Below are positions 34,466-39,462 of a DNA stretch of 39,462 bases, one piece after another (the first letter of the stretch is position 1; the number at the start of each line of letters is the position of its first letter). Below the pieces are notes generated by a model. The model was given only the letters and a program-made list of their open reading frames with translations, had not been told where the DNA came from and did not search any database. Position numbers and translations under genes: made by a program. Source of the DNA: Lentisphaerota bacterium (GTDB lineage: Bacteria; Verrucomicrobiota; Lentisphaeria; Victivallales; Victivallaceae); the NCBI GenBank assembly GCA_015061775.1, contig SUVY01000021.1:1-39462 (forward strand), in the 5' to 3' direction.

Positions 34466-36184
34466 ATGCAGTCTATCAGTGACATCGTCAAAGAGAAGCT
34501 GGTGATCGCGCTCGCGGCGGATCACGGCGGTTTTGAGGCAAAAAAAGAGCTTATGAGTTTTCTTTCCGGCAAGGGATACGAGGTGATGGATTGCGGTCCG
34601 TTCGTTTTCGATGCCGCAGATGATTACTCTGATTTCGGCTGTGCCGCCGGACGCGCGGTCAGCACCGGATGCGCAGATGCTGCGATCCTCATCTGCCGTT
34701 CCGGAATCGGAATGAGTATTGCTGCAAACCGTTTCCATGGAGTCCGCTCTGTGGTTGCTGAGGATATCGAGAGCGTCAAACTCAGCCGCAAGCACAATGC
34801 TTCCAACTGCCTCACTCTCCCCGGAGACAAGTTCGATGCTGCCAAGATGCAGGAGATCGTCGAGGCATGGCTCTCAACTGCTTACAGCAATGAAGATCGT
34901 CACACCCGTCGTCTCGAGAAACTTGAGCGCAAGAGCTACGACGATATCGCCGCAGTCCGCACCGCCGATCCCGAGATCGCCTCTCTCATCGACAAAGAGG
35001 CAGAGCGTCAGAATGACGGAATCGAGCTGATCGCCAGCGAAAACTTTGCCAGCTGCGCAGTTCGTGCCGCTCAGGGAAGTGTCCTTACCAATAAATACGC
35101 CGAGGGATATCCCGGCAAACGTTACTACAACGGATGCGAGTTCGTCGATGAGGTCGAGACCCTCGCCATCGAGCGTGTCAAAAAGCTTTTCGGAGCCGAG
35201 GCGGCAAACGTTCAGCCCCACTCCGGCAGCAGCGCAAATCAGGCTGTTTATATGGCTCTTTGCGAGCCCGGAGATACTGTGCTGTCCATGAGTCTTGATC
35301 ACGGCGGTCACCTTACCCACGGCCATCCGCTCAACTTCTCCGGACGTCTCTACAACATCGTTCCCTACGGAGTCAACCGCGAGACCGAGATGATCGACTA
35401 TGATGAGATCGAGCGTCTGGCTGTCGAGAACAAGCCCAAGATGCTGCTTGCCGGAGCAAGTGCCTATCCGCGTATCATCGACTTTGCAAGACTGCGCGAG
35501 ATCGCAGATAAGGTCGGCGCAAAACTCTTCGTCGATATGGCTCACATCGCAGGTCTTGTCGCCGCAGGAGAGCATCCCAACCCCGTTCCCTATTGCGATG
35601 TTGTCACCACCACCACCCACAAGACCCTGCGCGGACCGCGCGGCGGACTTATCCTCTGCAAAGAGGAGTATATCAAAGCGATCAACTCCAAGGTGTTCCC
35701 CGGAATGCAGGGTGGACCGCTCGAGCACGTCATCGCCGCCAAGGCTGTCTGCTTCGGAGAGGCTCTCACCGATGAGTTCAAAGCCTACCAGCGTCAGACC
35801 CGTCTCAACGCTGCCAAGCTCGCAGATGAGCTTGCCAAGCGCGGCTGCCGCATCGTTTCCGGAGGCACCGACAACCACCTCATGCTTATCGACCTGCGTC
35901 CGAAAGGAGCGACCGGAAAAGCCGTCGCCAACGCCCTTGATCTTGCCCGCATCACGGTCAACAAGAACATGATTCCCTTCGATCCCGAGAAACCCTTTGT
36001 CACCAGCGGTATCCGTATCGGAACTCCGGCCGTGACCACCCGCGGACTCAAAGAGGCTGAGATGGTTCAGGTCGCCGACTTCATCGATCGCGGAATCGCT
36101 GCCCGCGAGGATGAGGCTGCTCTGCGCGCCATCGGTGAAGAGGTCAAGGAGTTTATGACTGCTTTCCCGATGCCGCAGTTTTAA
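34466..36184 (+). CDS. Fused ribose-5-phosphate isomerase B / serine hydroxymethyltransferase
   Basis: A 572-residue protein that joins two enzymes in one frame. Residues about 10-150 are RpiB/Lac[13 protein letters not shown], the catalytic cysteine C77 in [11 protein letters not shown], and H110 in RKHNASN. The 33-residue spacing equals E. coli RpiB, but the usual CGTGIG is CRSGIG. Residues about 155-572 are a complete [25 protein letters not shown], and the PLP lysine K386 in [14 protein letters not shown], at the position expected from a GlyA offset of about 157. RpiB interconverts ribose and ribulose 5-phosphate; SHMT makes glycine and methylene-tetrahydrofolate. In many Firmicutes rpiB and glyA are neighbours, so this is a fused operon pair. 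serS follows after 29 bp. Confidence 0.93.
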
Positions 36185-38303: not shown

Positions 38304-39026
38304 ATGGTCAAAGTAGCTCAATGCTGGGATGACGGAGTGGCTACCGACATACGGTTGACGGAGATATTCCGCAAATATAACGCCAAAGCGACTTTCAATC
38401 TGTGTCCGGGATTGATGCCGGATGACAAAACAGCTGCGGCAGGATGGACTCCGATAGAGGGGCGAAATTGGAGTGTCAACGGCTTTTCCGGAGGCAGGAT
38501 CTGCAAAAAAGAGCTGAAATCTGTTTACGGAGACTTTCAAGTGGCAAGCCATTGCTGGAAACATGAAGTTGCCGGAGTTGTTCCTGATGACGTATTTCTG
38601 CAATCAGCAATGGATGCTCGCAACTTTCTTGAAGATATTTTTCAGCGCCCCTGCCGCGGATTTGCCTGGCCGGGAGGCCGCCATACTCCGGAAACCGAGT
38701 TGCTGTTGAGTAAGGCAGGATTTCTCTATGGAAGGACAGTCGAAAGCACCCCAGACGTGACCGGAAATAAAAAACGTCTTGCGCTTGCCGCGAACTGCCA
38801 CTTTATGAGCCGATCATTCTGGAAAATATTTGAAAATGCCAAAAATACCGGAGTCTTTTATTTTTGGGGGCACAGCCACGAAATGACAGACTGTCCGCAG
38901 TATTGGGAACGTTTTGAAATGTTGATAAAGAATTTGAGTGAAGATCCGGAAGTAGAGTGGATAGACGTGTCAGAAATACCTGAAATACTCGCTAATGGAG
39001 ATAATTCAGCAGAAAAGAGCGAATAA
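38304..39026 (+). CDS. NodB-like (CE4) polysaccharide deacetylase family protein
   Basis: A 240-residue protein of the CE4/NodB family. Motif 1 is CWDDG with the metal/catalytic aspartates, motif 2 is the H-x3-H pair in ASHCWKH, motif 3 is RGFAWPGGRHT, and motif 5 is FYFWGHSHEM. The set required for a metal-dependent deacetylase is present. No signal peptide is seen, so it probably acts in the cytoplasm or by non-classical export, perhaps on a soluble acetylated sugar. It starts 33 bp after the SDR gene with AAAGGAG before the ATG; the two may form an operon. Confidence 0.85.
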   Translation: MVKVAQCWDDGVATDIRLTEIFRKYNAKATFNLCPGLMPDDKTAAAGWTPIEGRNWSVNGFSGGRICKKELKSVYGDFQVASHCWKHEVAGVVPDDVFLQSAMDARNFLEDIFQRPCRGFAWPGGRHTPETELLLSKAGFLYGRTVESTPDVTGNKKRLALAANCHFMSRSFWKIFENAKNTGVFYFWGHSHEMTDCPQYWERFEMLIKNLSEDPEVEWIDVSEIPEILANGDNSAEKSE

Positions 39027-39087: not shown

Positions 39088-39175
39088 GGAGAGATGGTTG
39101 AGTGGTCGAAGGCGCCGCATTGGAAATGCGGTGTACCGAAAGGTACCGAGGGTTCGAATCCCTCTCTCTCCGCCA
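39088..39175 (+). tRNA. tRNA-Ser(GGA)
   Basis: A full cloverleaf with encoded CCA. The acceptor GGAGAGA (39088-39094) pairs with TCTCTCC (39165-39171), the discriminator is G and CCA is 39173-39175. The anticodon arm CCGCA-TTGGAAA-TGCGG gives anticodon GGA (reads UCC and UCU). A long variable arm GTACC-GAAA-GGTAC is typical of class II tRNA-Ser. The T arm is GAGGG-TTCGAAT-CCCTC. Confidence 0.97.
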
Positions 39176-39201
39176 TTTTTTTTGCCCAAAAAAATGGCGG
39201 A
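39169..39201. terminator. Inverted copy of the tRNA 3' end, acting as terminator-like hairpin
   Basis: 39169-39182 (TCCGCCATTTTTTT, the last seven bases of the tRNA with CCA and the T-run) is the exact reverse complement of 39188-39201 around a 5-nt loop (TGCCC). The T-run within the 5' arm can terminate the tRNA transcript. The second arm re-creates the tRNA 3' end in opposite orientation. Confidence 0.75.
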
Positions 39202-39373
39202 ATGAAGCCGTCAGGCTTTGCTTCATGGCACGCAGTGCCGCTTCATGCATCGCAAGATGCGCTTCATATTTTGCGGCATTGCCGCAAAATGCTTCATAAA
39301 AAATGCCTGACGATGAAGCAGCTCCATTTCATTCTGCTATGAAGCATTTTCCGTTTCACTCCAAATATGAAGC
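39202..39373. repeat. GCTTCAT heptamer cluster with hairpin spacers
   Basis: Forward GCTTCAT is at 39220, 39240, 39261 and 39291; the reverse form ATGAAGC is at 39202, 39313, 39339 and 39367. The three spacers between forward copies are each a hairpin: GGCAC-GCA-GTGCC (39227-39239), GCATC-GCAA-GATGC (39247-39260) and ATTTTGCGGC-ATT-GCCGCAAAAT (39268-39290). CGTCAGGC (39209-39216) pairs with GCCTGACG (39305-39312) and closes the set into a multibranched fold. 39374-39462 shows nothing further. Confidence 0.8.
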
Positions 39374-39462
39374 ATTCGCTTCGCTCATATGATGTAAAAA
39401 TGAAAAATGAGAGTTCCGGTTTGCAATACTTCATCACAGATATTATATTAACCAACGGATAT

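Follow-up and report, generated by a model that had tools for sequence, protein, structure and literature searches.

The tRNA-Ser junction and its heptamer array

The window analyzed here (the whole stretch of DNA, 39,462 bp) is contig C68 of a 2.7-Mb genome. Close to its end, a tRNA-Ser (GGA) gene is followed by a T run, by the tRNA 3' end repeated in inverted orientation, and by an array of GCTTCAT words and hairpins that starts 27 bp past the tRNA (Table 1). An earlier note on this DNA had reported eight copies of the heptamer, a different perfect hairpin in each spacer between forward copies, an 8-bp pairing enclosing the three hairpins, and an array start directly after the inverted tRNA end. 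Inspection of the sequence bore out each of these features. Positions 39202 to 39373 contain eight exact matches to GCTTCAT or ATGAAGC, four per strand; the forward-copy spacers GGCACgcaGTGCC, GCATCgcaaGATGC, and ATTTTGCGGCattGCCGCAAAAT form stems of 5, 5, and 10 bp, respectively; the arms CGTCAGGC and GCCTGACG pair over 8 bp; and the inverted tRNA end pairs with the tRNA end over 14 bp. In other arrays, the outer stem has CTGAAAAGGC or CTGTCAAGGC as its 5' arm and a correspondingly complementary 3' arm. Since the entire 39-kb window holds only 15 occurrences of GCTTCAT or ATGAAGC (7.9 expected), eight copies in 172 bp are extreme, and the heptamer-hairpin clustering is far in excess of chance.

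The inverted tRNA end at 39188 to 39201 proves to be an insertion junction, and the inserted DNA of the window copy would begin at position 39184. The conserved tail behind the array leads, in intact elements, to a gene encoding a four-helix-bundle protein. That gene is out of view for the window copy because both the window and the contig stop at position 39462. No Rfam intron match was obtained in the window.

Three further observations concern the surroundings of the array. A polysaccharide-deacetylase gene (window positions 38304 to 39026), located between a dehydrogenase gene and the tRNA-Ser gene, is absent from genome G111 (locus L194), indicating that the gene content upstream of tRNA-Ser varies too. 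A single open reading frame (34466 to 36184) encodes an RpiB/LacAB isomerase domain fused to serine hydroxymethyltransferase. Finally, an extra insert of ~55 bp (AAAAATGCGGGATAGCC...GCATTTTTGAA) was found in two genomes (L200 and L383) inside the loop of the tRNA-Ser T-run hairpin.

Table 1. Coordinates of the tRNA-Ser junction and of the heptamer array in the window
Feature	Position	Strand	Basis
tRNA-Ser (GGA), docking gene	39088..39175	+	
22-bp target repeat, left copy, CTCTCTCTCCGCCATTTTTTTT (tRNA 3' end plus T run)	39162..39183	+	
Inverted tRNA 3' end (AAAAAAATGGCGGA), pairs with 39169-39182	39188..39201	+	
Heptamer word 1 (ATGAAGC on +)	39202..39208	-	exact word match
Outer stem 5' arm CGTCAGGC	39209..39216	+	read from sequence
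Heptamer word 2 (GCTTCAT)	39220..39226	+	exact word match
Hairpin 1, GGCAC-GCA-GTGCC	39227..39239	+	sequence plus spacer/loop analysis
Heptamer word 3	39240..39246	+	exact word match
Hairpin 2, GCATC-GCAA-GATGC	39247..39260	+	sequence plus spacer analysis
Heptamer word 4	39261..39267	+	exact word match
Hairpin 3, ATTTTGCGGC-ATT-GCCGCAAAAT	39268..39290	+	sequence plus spacer analysis
Heptamer word 5	39291..39297	+	exact word match
Outer stem 3' arm GCCTGACG	39305..39312	+	read from sequence
Heptamer word 6	39313..39319	-	exact word match
Second-half spacer AGC...GCT	39320..39338	-	sequence plus comparison with other arrays
Heptamer word 7	39339..39345	-	exact word match
Second-half spacer ATTT...AAAT	39346..39366	-	sequence plus comparison with other arrays
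Heptamer word 8	39367..39373	-	exact word match
Conserved tail, sigma-70-like promoter (TTGCAA 39421, TATATT to 39449)	39374..39449	+	comparison with other arrays

Docking sites and insertion

Other clusters in the genome, as required by the reading of the earlier note, were indeed found, and their spacers are palindromic. The source genome contains nine arrays at eight places, namely, behind tRNA-Gln, -Phe, -Val, -Leu, -Pro (two places), -His, and -Ser, in a single orientation throughout and at 24 to 33 bp from the tRNA 3' end at all eight places. Three words in the spacing of the array were detected in 41 of 137 genomes of the order, mostly metagenome-assembled genomes, versus 0 for a reversed-pattern control. 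The relatives identified through a named genome collection are Lentisphaeria of animal guts. Overall, arrays lie 23 to 49 bp behind tRNAs or within pilin genes, and the loci fetched comprise 42 distinct tRNA-linked GCTTCAT arrays representing 17 anticodon types. Lentisphaeria also contain a second class of arrays based on the word TCTTCAC; confinement of this class to tRNA-Ser was considered and rejected, since tRNA-His is occupied too. Most of the loci from other phyla returned by a generic three-word scan, few of which were inspected, were set aside because their spacers are not palindromic. A viral origin of the arrays was likewise rejected, since no palindromic-spacer array was present in the IMG/VR stretches that the word scan had picked up.

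Comparison of two tRNA-Ser (CGA) loci, L219 in genome G106 and L431 in genome G094, revealed an empty and a filled site. L431 contains a 392-bp insert, and the two loci are 77% identical over 1617 bp upstream to the T run and 89% identical over 230 bp downstream. The insert is bounded by a 22-bp direct repeat, CTCTCTCTCCGCCATTTTTTTT, which comprises the tRNA-Ser 3' end and is present in a single copy in L219; a direct repeat of a tRNA 3' end at both ends of the element, as expected for integrative elements, was thus observed for this pair. The array of the window is 93% identical to the array inside the L431 insert, and the junction has the same order in both: the 22-bp copy is followed by a short loop and the inverted tRNA end, after which comes ATGAAGC. 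Such a clean insert with a 22-bp direct repeat indicates a mobile element, in agreement with the proposal that the repeat had been moved to many dispersed positions. This is the one clean empty/filled pair found, between species ~77% identical, and the 22-bp direct repeat is read from L431 and L219 only, the far boundary of the window copy lying beyond the contig. The tRNA-His site, recognized across species by its conserved upstream gene, is occupied by a GCTTCAT array in some species and by a TCTTCAC array in others, and is free of arrays in yet others. The tRNA-His locus of G109 was dropped as a candidate empty site, since it carries another insert with a repeated tRNA end. Word-free inserts of 166 to 251 bp with repeated tRNA 3' ends (25 to 148 bp) were also seen at tRNA-Ser, tRNA-His, and tRNA-Arg (L195, L199, L217, L461, and L040).

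Arrays are also present in prepilin genes in 15 of the 137 genomes, in frame in the copies that were read. They adjoin the hairpin encoding FTLIELL and are located between two copies of that stretch (L491, L494, L496, L498, and others). Two successive arrays of differing word classes occupy the prepilin gene of L491. Prepilin-array junctions number 32 in G103 and 11 in G127, and contig ends are frequent among them.

These target sites bear on the possibility of a tyrosine-recombinase element in which the array would be the attachment region, the tRNA 3' end would provide the 22-bp core, and the integrase would be supplied from elsewhere. tRNA 3' ends are classic attachment sites, and the 22-bp direct repeat contains the tRNA end. 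In pilin genes, the right-hand copy of the FTLIELL core hardly varies, as if borne by the element, and inserts with repeated tRNA ends exist without arrays. However, 17 anticodon types in addition to pilin genes would demand many distinct cores, and the immediate surroundings of the arrays showed no integrase gene. We therefore regard this explanation as unlikely.

Word-hairpin units and the linked four-helix-bundle protein

Among 137 distinct same-orientation word-to-word spacers, 74% have ends that pair perfectly with each other over 4 bp or more, versus 0.6% after shuffling, as anticipated by the earlier note, which had proposed selection on structure combined with a fixed word. Read on the word strand, the 3-nt loops were of the GNA type in 32 cases and of the TNC type in 3, the 4-nt loops were GNNA in 16 and TNNC in 0, and the loop-closing pair was C-G in 77 of 82 hairpins. 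This bias of loops and closing pairs on the word strand indicates that word and hairpin form one oriented unit. DNA mini-hairpins with C(GNA)G loops are unusually stable. The GNA loops lie on opposite strands in the two halves of the array, and no single transcript can therefore show every unit in the same orientation, which favors recognition of the units as DNA or of each half separately. A strand test based on mismatches in the spacers gave 7 G-T versus 5 A-C, a split that favors neither strand.

Folding of the window array as single-stranded DNA gave a z score of -6.3, with none of 200 shuffled sequences reaching an equal value, and folding as RNA gave a z score of -3.6. Since the minimum-energy folds include pairing between words and inverse words, the cloverleaf has several alternative folds to compete with. 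This strong fold, the fixed spacing to tRNAs, and the conservation of the window array above that of the flanking intergenic DNA (G000 versus G111) are compatible with a functional and immobile regulatory RNA, acting either as a trailer or terminator of the tRNA or as a leader of the four-helix-bundle mRNA. Against this stand the empty and filled sites with their target repeat, the arrays inside pilin coding frames, the promoter-like site between the array and the gene, and the GNA loops facing opposite strands in the two halves, so that a regulatory RNA appears very doubtful indeed.

The tail behind many arrays consists of a promoter-like site and an open reading frame of ~119 codons. The product belongs to TIGR02436/PF05635, the four-helix-bundle family of the 23S-rRNA "IVP" (E = 7e-28 for TIGR02436, with profile scores of 97 and 107 bits versus a curated cutoff of 24), and has a structural relative made of five chains, PDB 2rld (E = 8e-30). 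No recognized nuclease domain was detected in this protein, and we know of no catalytic site in the four-helix bundle. About thirty genes encoding the protein start ~260 to 700 nt (mostly 298 to 556 nt) behind a tRNA, with a word-hairpin array in between. Of the 41 array-bearing genomes of the order, 34 have PF05635, compared with 43 of the 96 genomes without arrays (P = 3e-5, shared ancestry being ignored), and the association holds within families f1 and f8 (P = 2e-7, for genome counts that are non-independent by descent). The physical linkage between array and gene stands irrespective of shared ancestry. The seven array-bearing genomes without a PF05635 match are all incomplete (72 to 87%).

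Behind the 42 arrays, the protein gene is intact in 12 cases, present as a fragment in 1, and absent (over up to 1.3 kb) in 20, whereas the contig ends in the remaining 9, including the window. The closest relatives of the window copy (L194, L431, and L152) are without an intact gene; in L152, the same tail is followed by what look like the final codons of the gene, as read from the sequence, although a profile search did not score them. Because these relatives lack an intact gene, the window copy itself is probably a non-autonomous derivative without an intact gene.

The earlier note had proposed a dedicated protein, possibly a linked Y1-type (REP-associated) transposase. The first part of this proposal is upheld by the PF05635 gene, through both adjacency and co-occurrence, and the second is not, since Y1 proteins were found in 17 of 41 array-bearing versus 50 of 96 array-free genomes (P = 0.27). 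Mobilization of REP/REPIN-like repeats by a Y1 (HUH) transposase, for example, TnpA-REP or an IS200/IS605 enzyme, would nevertheless be a match in the way of working, with a short word and orientation-locked hairpins. TTCAT or TTCAC could serve as the cleavage word, and Y1 proteins do occur in the order, with one weak match in the source genome. We consider this explanation very unlikely in view of the lack of co-occurrence, of the absence of Y1 proteins from the well-assembled, array-rich genomes G094, G098, G101, and G104, and of the adjacency and association displayed, by contrast, by PF05635. REP/REPIN sequences and their RAYT (TnpA-REP) proteins (Bertels and Rainey 2011, PMC3116915) resemble the arrays in being short dispersed palindromes, present in many copies with a fixed word and orientation, from which the protein gene is often missing. 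They differ in that the protein is a Y1 nuclease rather than a four-helix bundle, that the hairpins of the arrays vary freely in sequence between identical words, and that the arrays have tRNA genes as docking sites, with a target repeat of 22 bp.

Other candidate partners and functions were discarded. Reverse transcriptase was rejected as a partner (RVT_1 in 14 of 41 versus 42 of 96 genomes, P = 0.35), as was a defense function of the four-helix-bundle protein, which had no match in PADLOC (antiphage defense) or PHROG.

Together, we consider it likely that the arrays belong to a mobile element that docks behind tRNAs and at a few other hairpin sites and combines a hairpin array with a PF05635 protein, which would bind the word and the hairpins. 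This proposal draws on the 22-bp-repeat insertion of a near-identical copy, the docking sites, the constant word with varying hairpins, the gene linkage, and the clustering of words by protein subclade (see below). It has against it that no recombinase or nuclease for movement of the element was identified. The full element would comprise, in this order, an inverted copy of the target end, small hairpins separated by words, a promoter, and the four-helix-bundle gene (TIGR02436/PF05635). The protein, related to a solved pentamer and to the retroelement factor Avd, would bind the word and the C(GNA)G hairpins in single-stranded form, thereby uniting the element with its hairpin target and guiding insertion beside that hairpin. 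Strand joining would be performed by a host enzyme or by one supplied in trans. The inverted target-end copy found in the junction hints at copying by fold-back or at a pairing arm that acts like a guide. Landing at tRNA 3' ends and in pilin frames without a recognizable recombinase would imply that strands are joined by a new mechanism or with the help of a hidden partner.

Related words, proteins, and repeat systems

In Clostridia, the word GCTTCAT was found at 3 of 20 protein genes, and about 10 more follow hairpin arrays of other words, such as ACATCAT, CAATTCA, ATATCAT, ACTTCAC, ATATCGC, and ATTCCAT; most of these lie downstream of a tRNA or of a hairpin resembling a terminator. In a tree of 100 proteins, built from 101 columns only and with many inner forks unresolved, the proteins associated with hairpin arrays fell into one clade (97/92) and those of the Lentisphaeria GCTTCAT arrays into a single clade (100/100). 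Words clustered by protein subclade in this tree, with 22 label changes versus 56 after shuffling.

Outside the hairpin-array clade, many genes are preceded by plain tandem repeats of 7 nt (sometimes 8 nt) and followed by the inverse word. Over all 85 protein genes tested, five or more occurrences of a 7-mer within 300 bp upstream were seen for 35, versus 12 of 765 control pieces, and strong 7-periodicity was detected for 11 of 85 versus 1 of 765. All eight genes inspected by eye on named plasmids (L432 to L439, from Bernardetia, Monoglobus, Treponema, Nostoc [three], Planktothrix, and Chlorohelix) had heptamer flanks, clear in six and weak in Monoglobus and Chlorohelix. In Nostoc N6, for example, the gene lies between TTCGCAA repeats and TTGCGAA repeats. 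Genes between tandem heptamers and inverse words were also seen at L427, L343, L348, L355, L366, L367, and L370, in several phyla.

Stand-alone IVP/S23 four-helix-bundle genes occur widely and, to our knowledge, no function has been assigned to them. Their link to the arrays provides a first testable job for the family, namely, binding of its own word. It is conceivable, although we propose it tentatively and hold it to be somewhat short of probable, that TIGR02436 genes across bacteria are the protein part of an unrecognized class of mobile elements with iterated 7-nt words. In its simple form (Cyanobacteria, Bacteroidota, Spirochaetota, Chloroflexota, and Bacillota; also Lentisphaeria), the gene would lie between tandem heptamers and inverse heptamers. 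In the derived form, the words would be interleaved with hairpins, and docking of the element at tRNA 3' ends would involve a copying step from which an inverted and a direct copy of the target remain. The intervening sequences (IVSs) of 23S rRNA would be members that landed in rRNA. Such IVSs, with their S23/IVP gene, as described for Coxiella (PMC4990558), have the protein family in common with the arrays and are selfish, with complementary borders, at a hairpin of a structural-RNA gene. They differ by their location within a 23S rRNA helix rather than behind tRNA genes or in pilin genes, and the word-hairpin arrays belong to the tRNA-docked element.

Heptamer arrays, whose mechanism is not known in cyanobacteria and other phyla, are linked here to IVP/S23 genes, and four-helix-bundle genes flanked by tandem heptamers may explain where such repeats come from. 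In Nostoc, small dispersed repeats embedded in heptamers were reportedly described by Elhai et al. in 2008. TAACTGA tandem heptamers occur in Beggiatoaceae, Cyanobacteria, and Bacteroidetes, for which "no mechanism is evident" and no linked protein of the PF05635 family is named (PMC4679880). Tandem-heptamer systems resemble the present ones in the intergenic iteration of 7-nt words in unrelated phyla, the hairpins among heptamers, and the suspected mobility; unlike the TAACTGA repeats, the word arrays studied here accompany a protein gene. PF05635 also resembles Avd of diversity-generating retroelements (PMC10053308), from which the arrays differ, since RVT_1 is missing from 27 of 41 array-bearing genomes and does not co-occur with arrays. 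Group IIC introns differ in the same respect, the arrays having neither reverse transcriptase association nor an Rfam intron match in the window. A paper in Science listed the 23S rRNA IVP as a CRISPR-associated protein; a resemblance of heptamer arrays to CRISPR repeats may be the reason. No description of the array-protein system was found in the open-licence literature, to which our library was limited, and this constitutes weak evidence of novelty.

One Lentisphaeria genome (G127) contains, at tRNA-Thr (L406), an element with the word CATCGTT whose protein groups with those of Clostridia. This element may reflect transfer or contamination, the genome being listed at 6% contamination.
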